The position numbers and the translations under genes were made by a program. Below the pieces are notes generated by a model. The model was not told the origin of the DNA. It did not search any database and saw only the letters and a list, made by a program, of their open reading frames with translations. From Collimonas fungivorans Ter331 (GTDB taxonomy: Bacteria; Pseudomonadota; Gammaproteobacteria; Burkholderiales; Burkholderiaceae_D): a DNA stretch of 64,000 bases. The stretch is from the NCBI RefSeq assembly GCF_000221045.1, contig NC_015856.1, positions 2,996,542 through 3,060,541 on the forward strand, read 5' to 3'. Shown here piece after piece: positions 30,627 to 38,571 of the stretch. The number at the start of each line of letters is the position of its first letter. Position 1 is the stretch's first letter.

Positions 30627-31064
30627 TCAGGAAAACGGATTTACCAGGCTCACCCCGGTGCCGATAAAATCGCTGGTGTTACGCGTAACGACAGTCATGC
30701 TATGGATCAAGGCGATCGCGGCAATTTGCTTATCGATCGGATGTTGATTGTCGGCGGACATCAAACACCCCCACACCTGGGCACAACCGTCGTCAAAAGA
30801 CAGGATACGATCCGCATATTCCGTTGTAAGCGTCTGCAGCCATGTCTCCAGCATTTTGGCCTGTGCTGAATCGCCGCGGCGCTTGACGATTTCAATACCG
30901 CGGCGTATTTCGCCTATGCTTTGCGCCGGCAGATAAATCGCATCGAGGTCAACCGAGCGCCAGAACGCCTGCGTTCCGAGATTGGCCTTTTTCCCTTTGC
31001 GGGACTCGCTGATGACATTGGTATCTAGCAGATACACGCGTTGCCCCTGAATTGACTCTTGCAT
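30627..31064 (-). CDS. FitB/VapC-type PIN-domain toxin
   Basis: A 145-residue PIN ribonuclease-like toxin. Acidic residues expected in the active site are visible: D14 in YLLDTNVISE, E52 in IGEIRRGIE, D110 in PIDKQIAAIA, and D131 in the VVTRNTSDF segment. The sequence around DTNVISE and GIE matches FitB-like proteins. The ATG at 31064 directly abuts the antitoxin stop (TAAATG), so the two are translationally coupled. It probably cleaves RNA; the target is not predictable. Confidence 0.9.
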   Translation of the reverse strand: MQESIQGQRVYLLDTNVISESRKGKKANLGTQAFWRSVDLDAIYLPAQSIGEIRRGIEIVKRRGDSAQAKMLETWLQTLTTEYADRILSFDDGCAQVWGCLMSADNQHPIDKQIAAIALIHSMTVVTRNTSDFIGTGVSLVNPFS

Positions 31065-31524: not shown

Positions 31525-32490
31525 TCAGGCAACCTGCTTTTCCTGGCTGAGCGATTTGCGCCCGGCCAGATGCGTCAACATATCGTCAACCATCTCGCTC
31601 AAGCTGTATGCAGGACGCCATGCCCACTCTGCCCGCGCACTGGAATCGTCAATCGAACGCGGCCATGCATCGGCGATCGCCTGGCGGAAATCCGGCTTGT
31701 AAGCGGCCTGGAAAGCTGGCACACGCTGCTGGATGACGCATACCAGCTCGCGCGGCGAAAAGCTCCATGCCGCCAGATTGTATGAACCGGCGGTCTTGAG
31801 GTTCTCTTTCGGTGCGCTCATCAGTTCGATGGTAGCGCGCACGGCATCCGGCATGTACATCATCGGCAATGTGCTCTCTTCGCCCAGGAAACTGGTGAAG
31901 GCGCTGCCGTCAGCCGCCGAAAACAAGGCCTGGATGGCGTAGTCGGTCGTGCCGCCGCCGGGTTCCGCCGAGTAGCTGATCAGGCCCGGATAACGCAGGC
32001 TGCGGATATCCATGCCGTATTTTTCCGCATACCAGCTGCACCAGTGCTCGCCCGCCAGCTTGGAGATGCCGTAGACGGTCTTGGGATCCATGGCGCCGAC
32101 CTGCGGCGCATTGTCGCGCGGAGTCGACGGGCCGAAGGCGGCGATCGAGCTGGGCCAGAACACTTTCGACAGCTTGGCCTGGCGCGCCACTTCCAGCACG
32201 TTCAGCAAGCCGGTCATGTTCAGGTTCCAGGCCCACTCCGGATGCTCTTCGCCTTTGGCCGACAAGGCGGCCGCCAGATGATAGATTTCACCGATGTCGT
32301 GTTGCTGCACTACTTCGGCCAAGCGTTTGGCGTCGGTCACGTCCAGTTTTTCGTAAGCCAGTTCCTGGTGCCGGCCCAGCGCCTGTATATCGCTCGCAAC
32401 CACCTGTTGTGCGCCATGCAGTTTGACCAGTGCGGTCGTCAGTTCGGTGCCGATCTGGCCGTTGGCGCCGATTACCAATATTTTTTTCAT
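31525..32490 (-). CDS. tdh: L-threonine 3-dehydrogenase, GalE-like SDR type
   Basis: A 321-residue extended-SDR oxidoreductase. The NAD site GANGQIGTE is at about residues 8-16. The catalytic region shows PSSIAAFGP and YGISKLAGEHW (YxxxK), and the substrate region has RYPGLISY. It matches the GalE-like L-threonine dehydrogenases known from Cupriavidus and other bacteria: threonine to 2-amino-3-ketobutyrate with NAD. The ATG at 32490 is preferred to the TTG at 32505 because AAGAGA precedes it. It follows kbl by 24 bases, completing the threonine-to-glycine route. Confidence 0.85.
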   Translation of the reverse strand: MKKILVIGANGQIGTELTTALVKLHGAQQVVASDIQALGRHQELAYEKLDVTDAKRLAEVVQQHDIGEIYHLAAALSAKGEEHPEWAWNLNMTGLLNVLEVARQAKLSKVFWPSSIAAFGPSTPRDNAPQVGAMDPKTVYGISKLAGEHWCSWYAEKYGMDIRSLRYPGLISYSAEPGGGTTDYAIQALFSAADGSAFTSFLGEESTLPMMYMPDAVRATIELMSAPKENLKTAGSYNLAAWSFSPRELVCVIQQRVPAFQAAYKPDFRQAIADAWPRSIDDSSARAEWAWRPAYSLSEMVDDMLTHLAGRKSLSQEKQVA

Positions 32491-32514
32491 CGCTTGTCTC
32501 TTCAATTCTTATCT

Positions 32515-33738
32515 TCAGTTCTTCACCAGGCCCAGCTCTTCGCCGGCTTGCCGGAAAATGCCCACGGCGCGCTGCAATGTTGCTTCGTCATGGACCGCCG
32601 ACATCTGCACCCGGATCCGTGCCTGTCCTTGCGGCACCACCGGATAAAAGAAGCCGACTGCATAGACGCCCAGCTCATACAGGCGGCGCGACAGGTTTTG
32701 CGCGACGACGGCGTCGTACACCATCAGCGGCACGATCGGGTGGGTCCCCGGCTTGATCTCGAAACCGGCTTCCGTGATGGCCTGGCGGAAATAGACGGTG
32801 TTGCGTTCCAGGCGGTCGCGCAATTCGGTGGATGCTTCCAGCAGGTTGAGCGCTTCGATCGAAGCACCGACGATCGCCGGCATCAGTGTGTTCGAAAACA
32901 GGTAGGGCCTGGAGCGTTGCCGCAGCAGGTCGATCACTTCGCGCCGGCCGGCGGTGAAACCGCCGCTGGCGCCGCCCAGGGCTTTGCCGAGGGTGCCGGT
33001 AATCACGTCGACCTTGCCGAAGATGCCGCGCGCTTCATGCGTGCCGCGTCCGCGCGCGCCCATGAAACCGGTGGCGTGGCAGTCGTCGACGCCAAGCAAG
33101 GCGCCGTACTTGTCGCACAGCTGGCGGATCACATCGAGCTGCGCCACGGTGCCGTCCATCGAAAACACGCCGTCGGTAAACACCATGGAAAAACGGGCGT
33201 TGTCGGCCTTGGCCTGTTTCAGGCAGCGCTCCAGGTCTTCCATGTCGTTGTGGGCGTAACGATAGCGTTTCGCCTTGCACAGGCGGACGCCGTCGATGAT
33301 CGAAGCGTGGTTGAGCGCATCGCTGATGATCGCGTCCTGCTCGCCCAGCAAGGGCTCGAACAGGCCGCCGTTGGCGTCGAACGCGGCGGCGTACAGGATG
33401 CAGTCTTCAGTGCCGAGGAACTGCGCCAGGCGCTGTTCCAGTTCGCGATGGATATCTTGCGTGCCGCAGATGAAACGCACCGAACTCAGGCCGAAACCGT
33501 GGCTGTCCAGCGCCGCGTGGGCGGCCTTGATCAAGGCCGGGTGCGAAGACAATCCGAGATAGTTGTTGGCGCACAGGTTGATCAATTCGCCATTGGCGGT
33601 ATTGATCGTGCCGCCCTGCGGGCCAAGGATCAGGCGCTCGCTTTTCAGCAGGCCGGCGGCCTGGATCCCGGCCAGCTCGTCGCGCAGGTGGCCGTAGAAA
33701 CCGGGAGCGCCAGCCTGGGTAGTGATGTCTTGTGTCAT
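32515..33738 (-). CDS. kbl: 2-amino-3-ketobutyrate CoA ligase (glycine C-acetyltransferase)
   Basis: A 407-residue PLP enzyme of the alpha-oxoamine synthase family. It splits 2-amino-3-ketobutyrate with CoA into glycine and acetyl-CoA. Signatures are [35 protein letters not shown], the His in [33 protein letters not shown] and the Schiff-base Lys in [15 protein letters not shown]. Family length is about 400. The gene heads a two-gene operon with the tdh-like gene and faces an HTH-cupin regulator. Confidence 0.95.
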
Positions 33739-33773
33739 TGTCTGCCTCGATCTTATATAATATATTGCTTCAA

Positions 33774-33787
33774 TTCGATATATCGAA
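33774..33787. promoter_or_regulatory. 14-bp perfect palindrome in the kbl/regulator promoter
   Basis: TTCGATATATCGAA, self-complementary over 14 bp, sits in the AT-rich divergent region between kbl and the HTH-cupin gene. It is a probable operator of that regulator, which would then control kbl-tdh and itself. Confidence 0.6.
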
Positions 33788-33830
33788 CAAGAATTCCACG
33801 ATAATGCACAAAAACGAGGTTGTCAACCAG

Positions 33831-34424
33831 ATGAGCAGCAATTCAGGAAAAAATTTGGAGGATGCACCGCCCAAGGTCGGCGATACCTTGGTCAAGCTGC
33901 GCCAGGCCGACGGGCTCTCGCTGGATGCATTATCGAAACGCGCCGGCGTCTCCAAGTCCATGCTATCGCAAATCGAGCGCAACCAGGCCAATCCCACGGT
34001 TGCCGTGGTGTGGCGCCTGGCCAACGCCCTCGGCGTGCCGATCTCGCTGCTGGTGGACGGCAACCAGCCGGTGCCGGCCTCGATTGAAACCTTGCCCAGC
34101 CACGCCACGCCTTCGCTGCGTTCGCGCGACGGCCATTGCGTGCTGCGCATCCTGGGGCCGATCGAACTGGCCGGCCAGTTCGAATGGTATGAACTGTCGC
34201 TGGAACCCGGCGGCTGCCTCGACTCTGAGGCGCACGAACCGGCTTCGCGCGAACACCTGACGGTCTTGTCCGGCATGCTGGAAGTCCAGAGCGGCAGCAA
34301 CGTCACCAAGATCAAGGTCGGCGAAACCGCACGTTATGCGGCGGACCGCCCCCACTACATCAAGAATGTCGGCAAGAATGCCGCCACCGCCCTGCTGGTG
34401 GTGATCCATAACGGCGGCCAGTAA
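33831..34424 (+). CDS. XRE-type HTH regulator with cupin sensor domain
   Basis: A 197-residue regulator. The helix-turn-helix (about 14-72: VGDTLVKLRQADGLSLDALSKRAGVSKSMLSQIERNQANPTVAVVWRLANAL) is followed by a C-terminal cupin fold with EPGGCLDSEAHEP and HLTVLSGMLEVQSG strands. ATG at 33831 has GAGG about 11 bases upstream; the ATG at 33804 has none, so 33831 is preferred. It is divergent from kbl-tdh and probably senses an amino-acid-related ligand. The sensor class is known for small-molecule binding, but the ligand is not predictable. Confidence 0.85.
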   Translation: MSSNSGKNLEDAPPKVGDTLVKLRQADGLSLDALSKRAGVSKSMLSQIERNQANPTVAVVWRLANALGVPISLLVDGNQPVPASIETLPSHATPSLRSRDGHCVLRILGPIELAGQFEWYELSLEPGGCLDSEAHEPASREHLTVLSGMLEVQSGSNVTKIKVGETARYAADRPHYIKNVGKNAATALLVVIHNGGQ

Positions 34425-35299: not shown

Positions 35300-35545
35300 A
35301 TGAAAACGCTGTTCAAAGCCCTAAGCATCATGTTTTTTTTAGTACTGATGGTCGGCTTTGGGCTCTGTGGCTTTCTAGGGATTGTGTCTGGCAGTAGCTA
35401 CAAAACCGCTGGGGATGGCCTGTCGTCCATTTTTCTTCTTGGGTGCGCAGGAGTAGGAATTAGTATCGCGCTCGGCTTCGTTATATATCGCATTGCAAAA
35501 AAACCAGATGTAGCGATGCAGCCAGATCAAGACGAATCCAAATAA
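35300..35545 (+). CDS. Small two-segment membrane protein, first gene of radical-SAM operon
   Basis: An 81-residue protein with two hydrophobic segments (about 8-30 and 43-63) and a short charged tail ending QPDQDESK. I do not recognise a family. It starts an operon of four overlapping genes: its TAA shares one base with the ATG of the Lgt-like gene (TAATG). A membrane-partner or small-subunit role is an inference from this coupling. Codon use is AT-richer than the surrounding chromosome. Confidence 0.75.
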   Translation: MKTLFKALSIMFFLVLMVGFGLCGFLGIVSGSSYKTAGDGLSSIFLLGCAGVGISIALGFVIYRIAKKPDVAMQPDQDESK

Positions 35546-36312
35546 TGAAAGCAGTTGTCTTTTCCAGCTCGACTGCACACCTCATCCATCTGTTTTTTGA
35601 ATGGGCAGCCATCGCCTCCGGCGTCCAGCTATATCGCTGGCAACGTGCCCGCCAAGGCCTCCCCGGCATCTTGGAACCGGGACAATACGCCATCATCATC
35701 GGCTGCATACTCGGCGCAGCGATCGGAAACAAGTTGGTGTTCTGGATGGAGTTTCCCCAGTTATGGGCATCGTCTTCTTTAGACTTCAATCTCTGGATGT
35801 CGGGACAATCTATCGTCGGTGGTTTGCTCGGCGGGTTGTGTGGCGTAGAGATTGCAAAAAAACTGATTCGCTCTCAACGCTCCACGGGCGACAAATTTGT
35901 CTTGCCATTGATGCTAGGCACCGCCGTCGGGCGCGTCGGTTGTTTTCTGGCGGGACTGCACGACGGCACTTATGGCGTAGCCACCCACATGCCTTGGGGT
36001 GTCGACTTTGGCGACGGCATTTTTCGTCACCCCACGCAACTGTATGACATTCTCTTTGTATTAATTTGGGGTGGCGCCATTCTATTTTTTCAAAAACGCT
36101 GGCGCGAAAGCCCGGGCCTTCTCTTCAAGTTTTATCTATCAGGCTATTTACTGTGGCGCTTACTCATCGATGGCATCAAACCGATTCCTTATGAATATGC
36201 CGGTGGCCTTAGCGGCATACAGATCATATGTTTATTGGCTTTACTGTGCTATCTCCCATTTGTAATCAAACAATTTTTGAATTTTAAAAAAAATGCGCCT
36301 CTTTTCCCGTGA
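35545..36312 (+). CDS. Lgt-like (prolipoprotein diacylglyceryl transferase family) membrane protein
   Basis: A 255-residue polytopic protein with Lgt-family landmarks: SGQSIVGGLLGG (residues 86-97), GRVGCFLAGLHDGTYG (129-144, holding the conserved Arg130) and FRHPTQLYD (160-168). In true Lgt the first motif carries His-Gly-Gly with an essential His; here that position is Val91. The GRxxNFxNxE motif is also changed to GRVGCFLAGL. So it probably does not perform standard lipoprotein maturation, although it may still bind phosphatidylglycerol-type lipids. It overlaps the next gene by 20 bases and sits next to a radical SAM enzyme. The lipid-related role is an inference. Confidence 0.8.
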   Translation: MKAVVFSSSTAHLIHLFFEWAAIASGVQLYRWQRARQGLPGILEPGQYAIIIGCILGAAIGNKLVFWMEFPQLWASSSLDFNLWMSGQSIVGGLLGGLCGVEIAKKLIRSQRSTGDKFVLPLMLGTAVGRVGCFLAGLHDGTYGVATHMPWGVDFGDGIFRHPTQLYDILFVLIWGGAILFFQKRWRESPGLLFKFYLSGYLLWRLLIDGIKPIPYEYAGGLSGIQIICLLALLCYLPFVIKQFLNFKKNAPLFP

Positions 36313-37111
36313 TCGATCACGTGCAGCGTTACTGATAGTGAGTTTGAGCTTGATTGGTGGTACGGGTTGTATCACTGCCTCGATCGTCAACAGCGTGCAA
36401 CAAAAAAATGCAGAGCGTGCGAATGCAGAAATGCAGAGAAAAAGAATTGAAGGGTACAAAGTAGCAGCCAGTCGCGGCGATCTGGAGGCCATGACACAAC
36501 TTGGAATGGAATATATAAACGGTTCTCCAAGCCTGGAAAGAGATATCTCCACTGGTATCACTTTACTCGAACAAGCCGCTGCCAAACAATATAGTCCTGC
36601 GGAATATGGCTTAGGCTGGCTTTTACTCAACGGCTCCAACCGACAGGCCAACGCCAGGCCTCTCCGCGCAGAACAATTGCCCCTGGATCCCCTGCGCGGA
36701 GTCGAGTTATTAAAACGATCGTCTACACGTTCTTGCAGCCCTTCACCGGTGTTTTTTAATCGCTTTTCTGCGTTTGACGTTAGTGAAATATATCGCAATG
36801 GCGGGATTATCGGGCAAGACATACAGCAAGCAGACCTTTGGCTTGCGCGCAGCATTTTAGACTGCGGATATCCATTCGACGCCGCGATTAGATACAAATT
36901 TGAAATTTCAAAAACACCCGACACAGCGGCTAAAATTAAAACCCTATCTTTTCTCTTGATGCAACCGGTCAGCGACACGCTCACCAAACTGCAGGCATCC
37001 ATGTCTCAGGCAGACATACAAGCGGCACAAGAAAGAATGGCATTGCTACGCCAAGCTGCCATCGAATCAAGACAACAATATCCCGCACCGCCTAACCCGA
37101 GACAACGATGA
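36293..37111 (+). CDS. Sel1/TPR-like exported protein of radical-SAM operon
   Basis: A 272-residue product. The N-terminus (ALLIVSLSLIGGTGCITASI) is a hydrophobic leader with Cys in a weak lipobox (GTGC), so it may be a lipoprotein. The body has Sel1-like helical repeats: AASRGDLEAMTQLGMEYINGSPS, ISTGITLLEQAAAKQYSPAEYGLGWLLLNGS, and a later ADLWLARSILDCGYP. These repeats mediate protein-protein contacts. It overlaps both neighbours (20 bases with the Lgt-like gene, ATGA with the radical SAM gene), so the four products are probably made together. Confidence 0.75.
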   Translation: MRLFSRDRSRAALLIVSLSLIGGTGCITASIVNSVQQKNAERANAEMQRKRIEGYKVAASRGDLEAMTQLGMEYINGSPSLERDISTGITLLEQAAAKQYSPAEYGLGWLLLNGSNRQANARPLRAEQLPLDPLRGVELLKRSSTRSCSPSPVFFNRFSAFDVSEIYRNGGIIGQDIQQADLWLARSILDCGYPFDAAIRYKFEISKTPDTAAKIKTLSFLLMQPVSDTLTKLQASMSQADIQAAQERMALLRQAAIESRQQYPAPPNPRQR

Positions 37112-38571
37112 CGCGTAAAATCCGCCCCTACCTTTTTTACGATACGACTACTTCAGTCTGCTCTACCTGCCTGCATCCGGTTGAAGCCAAGATCATCTTT
37201 AAAGATGATCTTGTCTACATGGATAAGTGGTGTACTGCGCACGGCAGCGAACGCGTGCTGGTTAGCGATGACGTCGAATATTATCGTTTGTGCCGCGAAG
37301 TGTTCGTCAAACATCCGGAAATGCCGCAAACGTTTAACACTAAAATGGAATACGGCTGCCCCTATGATTGCGGCCTGTGTCCAGACCACATGCAGCACTC
37401 TTGCTTATCCATTGTCGAGATTACCGACAACTGCAATCTAAATTGCCCCGTTTGTTATGCAGAAAGCGGTACGCATCGAGAACAGCATAAACCCTTGGCG
37501 GACGTCATCAAGATGCTTGACGCTGTTGTGGCCAATGAAGGCGAGGCTGATGTCATGCAATTGTCCGGCGGCGAGCCCACTTTACATCCGCAATTCTGGG
37601 AAATTCTCGATGCTGCCAAAGCGCGTCCGATCAAACATGTGATGGTTAACACCAATGGCATCGTATTGGCGCAAGATCCTGAGTTTGTGCAACGCTTGGC
37701 AGGCTATGCGCCAGGAATAGAAGTGTATTTGCAATTCGATTCCATGCGTGCAGAGGTGCATAAGGTATTACGCGGCGCTGATTTAAGCCGCATCCGGCTA
37801 CAAGCATTGAAAAATCTGAATGCAGCTGGCTTGTCCACCACTTTGGTGGTAACGCTGAAAAAAGGTTTGAATGATGATGAGATTGGCGCCATTATCGATT
37901 TCGCCTTGACACAACCGTGTGTTCGCGGCGTCACATTGCAGCCGATTCAAGATGCTGGTCGTGTTGAAAATTACGATCCTCGCCTGCATCGCCTGACCGT
38001 TTCTGAAATACGTCGCAAGATCGCCGAGCAAACCAGTGTATTCACCTTGCAAGATATCGTCCCGGTGCCTTGCAACCCCGATACTCTGGCAATGGCTTAC
38101 GCTCTCAAAACCGACGAAAAAACTGTCCCGCTTACCCGATATCTTGATCCGCAATCGTTAGTGGAAGGCAGTGGCAACACGATAGTTTTTGAGCGCGACG
38201 ATGCGCTCAAAAAGAATATGAAAGACCAGATATTTAAACTATTTTCGACTAACCATTCGCCGGAATCACAAGCCAACTGTCTTTCTGAATTAATGTGCTG
38301 CCTGCCTTTGATTTCTGCGCCGCAGACGCTGCGATACGACAATGTTTTTCGGGTACTGATTGTGCAGTTTATGGACGCCTATTCTTTGGATGTTCGCGCC
38401 TTGAAAAAATCCTGCATACATTTTGCCCAAGCTGATGGAAAAATGATTCCATTTGAAAGTTACAACCTGCTCTATCGCGATGACAAACGACTTACGGACA
38501 TTCGCCAAAGCATTGCGCAACAAACCACCGCCAGACACGATCCCAACCGCATCCCGATCAAACTGTTGTAG
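37108..38571 (+). CDS. Cysteine-rich radical SAM enzyme resembling tetraether/membrane-spanning lipid synthases
   Basis: A 487-residue radical SAM protein. The canonical cluster motif is C109-x3-C113-x2-C116 (TDNCNLNCPVCYAE); a SAM-binding GGE occurs in LSGGEPTLHP (154-156). A second CxxxCxxC lies just upstream (C84, C88, C91 in GCPYDCGLCPDH), with C99 between; the N-terminus adds C18-x2-C21, C42 and C62. This N-terminal cysteine layout followed by GCPYDCGLCP and TDxCNLNCPVC matches, from memory, the archaeal MJ0619/Tes family and the bacterial MSS proteins that join lipid tails. It sits in the Lgt-like operon, overlapping the Sel1-like gene by ATGA. The fold and cysteines are certain; the reaction is inferred. 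Confidence 0.8.
   Translation: MTRKIRPYLFYDTTTSVCSTCLHPVEAKIIFKDDLVYMDKWCTAHGSERVLVSDDVEYYRLCREVFVKHPEMPQTFNTKMEYGCPYDCGLCPDHMQHSCLSIVEITDNCNLNCPVCYAESGTHREQHKPLADVIKMLDAVVANEGEADVMQLSGGEPTLHPQFWEILDAAKARPIKHVMVNTNGIVLAQDPEFVQRLAGYAPGIEVYLQFDSMRAEVHKVLRGADLSRIRLQALKNLNAAGLSTTLVVTLKKGLNDDEIGAIIDFALTQPCVRGVTLQPIQDAGRVENYDPRLHRLTVSEIRRKIAEQTSVFTLQDIVPVPCNPDTLAMAYALKTDEKTVPLTRYLDPQSLVEGSGNTIVFERDDALKKNMKDQIFKLFSTNHSPESQANCLSELMCCLPLISAPQTLRYDNVFRVLIVQFMDAYSLDVRALKKSCIHFAQADGKMIPFESYNLLYRDDKRLTDIRQSIAQQTTARHDPNRIPIKLL

Follow-up and report, generated by a model that had tools for sequence, protein, structure and literature searches.

RESULTS

Organization of the operon

We analyzed a 64,000-nucleotide window of the Collimonas fungivorans Ter331 genome, which consists of a single contig of 5.19 Mb. 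The window carries a four-gene operon in which a radical S-adenosylmethionine (SAM) protein homologous to tetraether synthase (Tes) is encoded together with a membrane protein of the Lgt family that has no histidine at the Lgt His103 position (Table 1). Radical SAM proteins linked to this Lgt-like partner form a clade of their own, and the operon is a candidate system for the modification of phospholipid tails. As the initial annotation had described, the four genes are consecutive and overlap at every junction. All open reading frames listed lie on the forward strand, and the junctions are, in order, TAATG, a 20-base overlap at positions 36293-36312, and ATGA.

Table 1. Genes of the operon and their positions in the window
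Feature	Position	Strand	Basis
Small protein with two transmembrane (TM) helices, 81 amino acids, G-F-G-L-C-G motif in TM1	35300-35545	+	Open reading frame and locus comparison
Lgt-like membrane protein, 255 amino acids	35545-36312	+	PF01790, 83.7 bits; 5AZB by sequence and fold
Sel1-repeat protein, 272 amino acids, possible lipoprotein (LIGGTGC, by eye)	36293-37111	+	PF08238, 34.4 bits
Tes/TrsS-like radical SAM protein, 487 amino acids	37108-38571	+	7TOL, 7TOM, and NCBIfam TrsS and Tes matches

The radical SAM protein is a full-length Tes homolog

The radical SAM protein, which is 98% identical to Collimonas proteins, was compared with the sequences of the Protein Data Bank (PDB). It matched 7TOL (GDGT-MAS) over residues 13-459 (E = 2.3e-63; profile search, E = 7.3e-80), and tetraether synthase was the only end-to-end relative. 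The other matches, including weaker ones to SkfB and other maturases at approximately residues 93-284, extended over the common radical SAM core only. A Foldseek search with the AlphaFold model placed 7TOM first (E = 4.3e-32), with the next family at 5.8e-10. The model had a mean predicted local distance difference test score (pLDDT) of 74.7 and was weak at residues 1-10, 65-97, and 351-404, so we do not argue cluster geometry from it. Sequence and structure searches thus agree with the relationship to Tes proposed initially, and the protein is a full-length homolog of tetraether synthase.

Pfam assigned the protein to Radical_SAM (97.9 bits; cut-off, 29.5) and its N-terminus to the HMPTM zinc ribbon (63.2 bits; cut-off, 27), HMPTM being presumably a pterin methyltransferase. 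Among NCBIfam models, TrsS (NF045646) aligned with residues 13-462 and gave 327 bits against a cut-off of 490, and Tes gave 269 bits against 450. The corresponding proteins of two other loci, L044 and L078, scored 260 and 270 bits with the Tes model. Because both NCBIfam scores are under their cut-offs, the window protein is, as judged by these profiles, a member of neither curated family.

Metal sites and conserved residues

Residues were counted in 80 aligned rows (79 loci and the window; the incomplete L090 was left out), and Tes numbering was transferred through the alignment as the chain number minus 20. Three sites described for Tes (PMC9433317; this and the papers below are cited from excerpts of their text) were invariant in all 80 rows. 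The rubredoxin-type site, C9-x2-C12-x20-C33-x2-H36 in Tes, corresponds to C18-x2-C21-x20-C42-x2-H45; the N-cluster, C73/C77/C80/His in Tes, corresponds to C84/C88/C91/H94, with His94 as the fourth ligand by alignment; and the CX3CX2C motif of the radical SAM cluster corresponds to C109/C113/C116. The two CxxxCxxC motifs, C18-x2-C21, and C42 of the initial annotation are therefore upheld, whereas C62, which it had also taken as a ligand, lies outside the conserved columns, and the fourth rubredoxin-type ligand is His45. Of five SAM-site residues named for Tes (PMC9433317) and compared here, three are identical: Arg210, Gln268, and Arg275 correspond to R222, Q278, and R285, which are invariant in the 34 A1 rows. 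The other two are changed, Phe106 to Tyr117 and Ser271 to Gln281.

Met439 of Tes, a labile residue at its C-terminal 4Fe4S cluster, and Tyr459 are fully conserved among 1,000 archaeal homologs (PMC9433317). At the Met439 position, the window protein has V419 (Val in 77 rows and Met in 3), and at the Tyr459 position it has F439 (Phe in 38, Met in 21, Ile in 20, and Leu in 1). Since the M439A, Y459F, and Y459L variants of Tes keep robust activity (PMC9433317), the loss of both residues is compatible with coupling. C322 and C436, each present in 80/80 rows, probably match the ligands of the C-terminal cluster of Tes. C397-C398, C99, and His97, also present in 80/80 rows, align with no equivalent residue of Tes. 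Read from the alignment, the metal-site layout of Tes is kept for three of the four sites, and the third (C-terminal) iron-sulfur (FeS) cluster may be bound differently from that of Tes.

The Lgt-like protein lacks the Lgt histidine

The Lgt-like protein matched PF01790 (83.7 bits; cut-off, 24.9) and stayed under the cut-offs of all four NCBIfam Lgt models that it matched. Its predicted structure (pLDDT 91.2) gave Escherichia coli Lgt (5AZB) as the sole PDB fold match at E ≤ 0.001 (Foldseek, E = 1.4e-5). In the window protein, V91 stands at the position of Lgt His103, the Lgt motif GRxGNFxNGE is replaced by GRVGCFLAGLHD, and Asn146 is replaced by C133. R143, Y235, and R239 are kept as R130, Y201, and R205.

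The same pattern was observed in an alignment of 93 rows, comprising 77 of 80 related loci, 15 phylum-survey loci (both sets are described below), and the window. Contig ends leave a partial Lgt-like gene in five of the 80 loci (L018, L034, L036, L043, and L050), and three of the 15 phylum-survey rows repeat a protein of the 77. The His103 column contained Val in 75 rows, Ile in 5, Leu in 5, Ala in 3, and Glu in 2, with 3 gaps, and thus His in 0 of 90. The Asn146 column was Cys in all 91 rows with a residue. Arg143 was kept in 91/91, Tyr235 in 88/93, and Arg239 in 93/93. The claim of a His-less Lgt-like protein therefore holds for the relatives as well as for the window. According to a review of E. 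coli Lgt (PMC8689077), the enzyme is inactive when His103 is replaced by Asn or Gln and in the Asn146Ala and Tyr235Phe variants, and it is less active with Arg143Ala or Arg239Ala; in docking, the head group of phosphatidylglycerol is surrounded by Arg143, Asn146, Ser198, Glu202, Tyr235, and Arg239. The retained Arg and Tyr residues, together with the loss of His103, indicate a lipid site that is largely kept and a proposed base that is lost.

The Lgt-like protein is not the only Lgt of the cell. Elsewhere in the window genome, a second Lgt scored 260 bits and carries FHGG and GRLGNFINGE. A stronger second match was also present in 8/8 further genomes (193 to 274 bits), and hence in all 9 genomes compared; the His of the second Lgt was read in the window genome only.

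The Lgt-linked radical SAM proteins form a separate clade

We collected 164 relatives in genome contigs and used the best 80 as the locus set. An Lgt-like gene was located within ~2 kb of the radical SAM gene in 77/80 loci. Seventy-four of these pairs are on the same strand, and the three from myxobacteria are divergent. Among the three loci without pairing, L051 and L083 end at contig ends, and L082, from a metagenome-assembled genome of Methylococcaceae, has no Lgt-like gene within the 8 kb examined upstream; L082 is possibly a natural test of whether the Lgt-like partner is dispensable. Next to this set, 274 genomes of the same class, drawn evenly, were surveyed. The radical SAM profile matched 8 of them (E below 1e-180) and the Lgt-like profile 7 (E ≤ 1e-30). 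In all seven Lgt-like-positive genomes, the two genes lie less than 1 kb apart; the remaining radical SAM-positive genome, with no Lgt-like match, is 72% complete. One genome of this survey (G239) contains two weaker, different radical SAM genes.

At the phylum level, the TrsS model at E ≤ 1e-30 matched 8/299 Pseudomonadota genomes, including the window genome, and 22/193 Myxococcota genomes; its cut-off was exceeded in none of the 299 Pseudomonadota genomes. These surveys gave 38 loci (2 of 32 myxobacterial matches yielded none) whose flanks span ~1.5 kb, or less where a few of them meet the end of a contig. An Lgt-like gene was found in 16/16 loci scoring at least 593 bits with the family profile, a number that includes the window gene itself (L099) and three duplicates of the locus set on zero-length branches (L114, L115, and L119, equal to L078, L086, and L064). 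By contrast, it was found in 0/22 loci scoring at most 335 bits, two of which (L130 and L139) overlap. In an IQ-TREE phylogeny of 71 rows, the Lgt-linked group formed one side of a branch (support, 100/99) present in 99% of bootstrap trees. All 34 A1 rows were labeled Lgt-linked in this tree, including L082 (none found) and L083 (contig end); several outside rows are long-branched, and the order outside the group is unsure. These results show that the Lgt-linked radical SAM proteins form a separate clade within the family, and the linkage claimed initially is confirmed in other genomes by all three counts (77/80 loci, 7/7 class genomes, and 16/16 clade loci). Chance does not account for the pairing or for the key residues, both of which are found again in two phyla. 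Members of the clade occur in named isolates of Collimonas, Massilia, Roseateles, and Dechloromonas.

Other branches of the family were also seen in the phylum surveys. The one protein above the TrsS cut-off, L113 of Myxococcota genome G705, has Ala and Phe at the C322 and C436 positions, and the C-terminal FeS cluster known from Tes may therefore be missing in TrsS proper. Myxococcota genomes contain further Tes/TrsS-like clades (L123, L125-L127, L135-L136, and others), with at most three matches per genome and no Lgt-like gene in their loci. Several of these proteins have a His pair in the region of Tes Met439 and keep the Tyr at 459.

A small membrane protein is the usual third component

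The initial annotation had cast the Sel1-like protein as the organizer of the complex. Its Sel1 score is above the cut-off (34.4 bits; cut-off, 30.7), and the window protein was matched by blastp at E ≤ 1e-3 in 16/80 loci, with L037 and L053 added by Pfam. These were from Collimonas, other Oxalobacteraceae, and a few other loci. Sel1 is thus lineage-specific and no general member of the system, and we rejected it as a universal component.

The small TM protein is more widespread. We applied a filter of 46-169 residues, two hydrophobic stretches, and G-x(1-4)-C within a hydrophobic stretch. In 55/72 loci, the 3.5 kb upstream encode a small TM protein on the same strand. The same filter gave background counts of 1/65 at 3.5-7 kb upstream, 0/72 upstream on the opposite strand, 2/72 at 0-3.5 kb downstream, and 1/66 at 3.5-7 kb downstream. 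The filter undercounts, as 8 of the 17 misses carry such a protein in a wider list of small proteins (L016, L039, L056, L058, L059, L071, L072, and L074), and joining the two gave 63/72 loci. Because part of the wider list was itself chosen by the G-x-C pattern, the background test applies the plain filter to test and control stretches alike. In 6 of 13 further contexts, a small TM gene lies downstream (L144-L146, L148, L152, and L154).

We collected 87 small proteins, a set that was partly pattern-picked and whose rows from the further contexts were chosen by eye. Cys was present in the scored TM1 window in 70/87, and some of the 17 rows without it carry the motif elsewhere (for example, L045_7762-8004 and L066_7768-8004). 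Of the 70, 57 have G at -2, 44 have G at +1, and 65 have a basic residue before the helix. A classical lipobox was rejected, since 0/70 matched it and position -1 holds a small residue in just 14. A B12D identity was disregarded, as the Pfam score of 21.3 bits is under the cut-off of 21.5. These results indicate that the pair is usually joined, as a third component, by a small TM protein bearing a G-x-C motif.

Lipid genes near the operon

Neighboring genes were counted by blastp (E ≤ 1e-15, best match per locus) because the codon-usage gene caller missed genes in Collimonas loci. A gene for an LplT-like transporter fused to a PlsC-type acyltransferase was found upstream on the same strand in 33/80 loci, and no LplT-PlsC or Aas gene was detected downstream or on the opposite strand by this search. 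In 13 of the 33 (13/80 of all loci), Rhodocyclales among them, Aas is also encoded upstream on the same strand. Tested in L044, and in L075 for the transporter, the fusion carries PF07690 and PF01553 in Pfam; it lies 0.9-2.7 kb from the radical SAM gene in 30/33 loci and 3.8-6.4 kb away in L047, L060, and L075. In L044, only 18 bases separate it from the Lgt-like gene; here it scored 100 bits with the LplT model (cut-off, 297) and 562 and 483 bits with acyl-acyl carrier protein phospholipid acyltransferase models (cut-offs, 1349 and 1221). The L044 Aas, the sole one tested, scored 1006 bits against a curated cut-off of 886. LplT and Aas flip and reacylate lysophospholipids (PMC11416262).

An FA_hydroxylase-family gene lies near three of the four loci taken as myxobacterial (L064, L078, and L086, not L073). 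It was assigned by Pfam in L064, where the best NCBIfam model was OlsE (67.8 bits; cut-off, 475); the L086 copy is on the other strand, and L149 has a look-alike recognized by eye. Two Dyella loci carry a 2-oxoglutarate oxygenase-family gene (Pfam for L084). An Amidohydro_2-family protein is encoded upstream on the same strand in 13/80 loci, in L044 (3882-5102) between Aas and LplT-PlsC. An Rce1-like (CAAX/CPBP) protease-family gene stands in or beside the run at L054:4380-5060, L058:9489-10190, and in L085 (by Pfam in L054 only). Within the window itself, inspection by eye revealed a VapC-like PIN-domain protein at 30627-31064 on the reverse strand and, at 31525-34424, a threonine-degradation pair of kbl and tdh type with a divergent cupin regulator.

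DISCUSSION

We put the probability at about 0.5 that the operon is an accessory system that modifies phospholipid tails, perhaps by coupling them tail to tail. That the substrate is a lipid of some kind seems likely. Tail-to-tail coupling, which would give a bridged or membrane-spanning phospholipid, is by analogy with Tes the likeliest single chemistry, and we advance it tentatively. In such a system, the Lgt-like protein would act as a lipid platform that binds a glycerophospholipid, probably phosphatidylglycerol, through Arg143, Tyr235, and Arg239, without normal thiol transfer. Together with the small TM protein, it would dock the soluble radical SAM enzyme at the membrane. The enzyme would take hydrogen from an unactivated acyl-chain carbon, and two acyl tails would join through an FeS-bound intermediate, as in Tes, for which a sulfur-bearing lipid intermediate is reported (PMC9433317). 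Aas and LplT-PlsC, where present, could reacylate or recycle lysolipids around the coupling reaction.

Several observations weigh against this proposal. C438-M439 of Tes reads I418-V419 in the window protein; with the invariant C397-C398 pair, this suggests that the chemistry may differ from that of Tes, and by NCBIfam score the protein is nearer to TrsS than to Tes. The enzyme of L082 stands without an Lgt-like gene in the 8 kb upstream. The membrane-lipid role assigned initially is borne out only in part: LplT-PlsC, Aas, and FA_hydroxylase neighbors provide a lipid setting at some loci, whereas 47/80 loci show no LplT-PlsC gene, and blastp detected none at the loci of Oxalobacteraceae, Dyella, Methylococcaceae, or Psychrobacter. 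The Collimonas LplT-PlsC gene (57% identical) maps close to aroC, at a distance of ~0.4 Mb from the operon, and in L060 a single stretch contains aroC together with the LplT-PlsC, Lgt-like, and radical SAM genes; the link may thus partly be an inherited position, to which an old shared arrangement contributes. Finally, to our knowledge, the host bacteria are mostly mesophiles without reported membrane-spanning lipids.

Among the alternatives, the one that survives best is that the Lgt-like protein is still a transferase, with a changed base and nucleophile, that attaches a glyceryl lipid to the TM Cys (G-x-C-G) of the small protein, with the radical SAM enzyme modifying or cross-linking the lipid or the Cys. 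The small TM protein stands beside the pair well above background (55/72 against 0-2 of 65-72), its TM1 Cys is mostly framed by Gly and its helix mostly preceded by a basic residue, and the Arg and Tyr residues of the Lgt lipid site are retained. We nevertheless judge it unlikely. His103 and Asn146, both required in E. coli Lgt, are replaced wherever a residue stands; the Cys lies inside the hydrophobic stretch, is absent there in L150, L153, and L155, and lies in a classical lipobox in 0/70; and the motif shares are biased upward by the pattern-picked part of the 87 proteins. A related scheme, in which the Lgt-like protein, the small TM protein, and the Tes-like enzyme form a machine that holds a glycerolipid covalently on the intramembrane Cys, or bridges it through that Cys, and then couples its tails radically, strikes us as quite improbable. 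If true, the product would be a new class of membrane molecule, and bacteria would possess their own equivalent of tetraether formation, with a re-purposed lipoprotein enzyme serving as the lipid platform.

Instead of the acyl chain of a phospholipid, the substrate could be a quinone lipid or a polyisoprenoid, since Tes works on isoprenoid tails and its pocket suits long hydrophobic chains (PMC9433317). The family of the Lgt-like partner, however, binds phosphatidylglycerol (PMC8689077), and the nearby lipid genes, where present, are of acyl-phospholipid type (Aas and LplT-PlsC). No isoprenoid gene was noticed in the locus gene lists, although no search was aimed at one. We regard an isoprenoid substrate as improbable. 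We also doubt strongly that the enzyme modifies a protein or peptide, such as the small Cys-bearing, Sel1, or Lgt-like protein. The weaker matches to SkfB and other maturases and the adjoining small Cys-bearing proteins point in that direction, but the maturase matches are limited to the core while Tes alone matches end to end, and the small membrane proteins differ widely in sequence around a single motif. Least likely, and very improbable, is a TrsS-like enzyme of cofactor or pterin chemistry with an incidental Lgt-like partner, for although TrsS is the top NCBIfam score and the zinc-ribbon family is named HMPTM, the window protein does not reach the TrsS cut-off, L113, as TrsS proper, carries Ala and Phe in place of C322 and C436 and is not accompanied by an Lgt-like gene at its locus, the pairing is too regular for an incidental partner (16/16 against 0/22), and the earlier role of MJ0619 is, in the excerpted account of the structure authors, uncorroborated and methanopterin binding unlikely (PMC9433317).

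Bacterial homologs of Tes are already known. Both papers that identified Tes mention them, with no function shown in the excerpts (PMC9433317 and PMC8941075): Zeng et al. proposed them for branched tetraethers, without a test in the excerpted text (PMC8941075), and Lloyd et al. placed them in organisms not known for biphytanyl chains (PMC9433317). No report of the Lgt-like/radical SAM pairing was found in the open-licence literature. What is added here is a delimited clade, its His-less Lgt-like partner, a small Cys-bearing membrane protein, and a partial phospholipid setting. In this clade, the two residues that marked Tes, Met439 and Tyr459, are lost, the partner genes are defined, and the setting is in part that of phospholipid genes. 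Should the enzyme join acyl tails, covalently bridged phospholipids would be much more widespread among mesophilic Proteobacteria than has been thought, which would matter for lipid biomarkers. Should it act otherwise, the clade would reveal a further radical chemistry and a function outside lipoprotein synthesis for a relative of Lgt.

The initial annotation had grouped the enzyme with Mss as well as with Tes, and kinship with Mss is unsupported by the control genomes: that of Thermotoga maritima, which we take to be the Mss and diabolic-acid organism, gave no match to the TrsS model NF045646 at the E cut-off used, in a genome-level comparison made with that model. Mss and Tes are also treated separately in the excerpted PMC11868695, where Mss couples two fatty acids, whereas coupling is a proposal here. 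The LplT-Aas remodeling system is represented by genes upstream on the same strand in 13/80 loci and stands outside the clade-wide core. TrsS (NF045646) is the closest curated family by score, but the window protein reaches only 327 of the 490 bits needed, and the one TrsS proper protein among the loci (L113), unlike the clade, is without equivalents of C322 and C436 and without the Lgt-like gene. With Lgt (5AZB), the Lgt-like protein has in common the fold, Arg143, Tyr235, Arg239, Glu202 (as Glu or Asp), and the RHP motif, and it differs in that position 103 is never His and Asn146 is Cys. Tes/GDGT-MAS (MJ0619; 7TOL and 7TOM) shares end-to-end homology, the rubredoxin-type site, the N-cluster, and the radical SAM cluster with the clade. 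The clade proteins differ from it in scoring under the Tes cut-off, in having Val for Met439, Ile for C438, and Phe, Met, Ile, or Leu for Tyr459, and in their additional C397-C398, C99, and His97 and their linkage to the Lgt-like gene.

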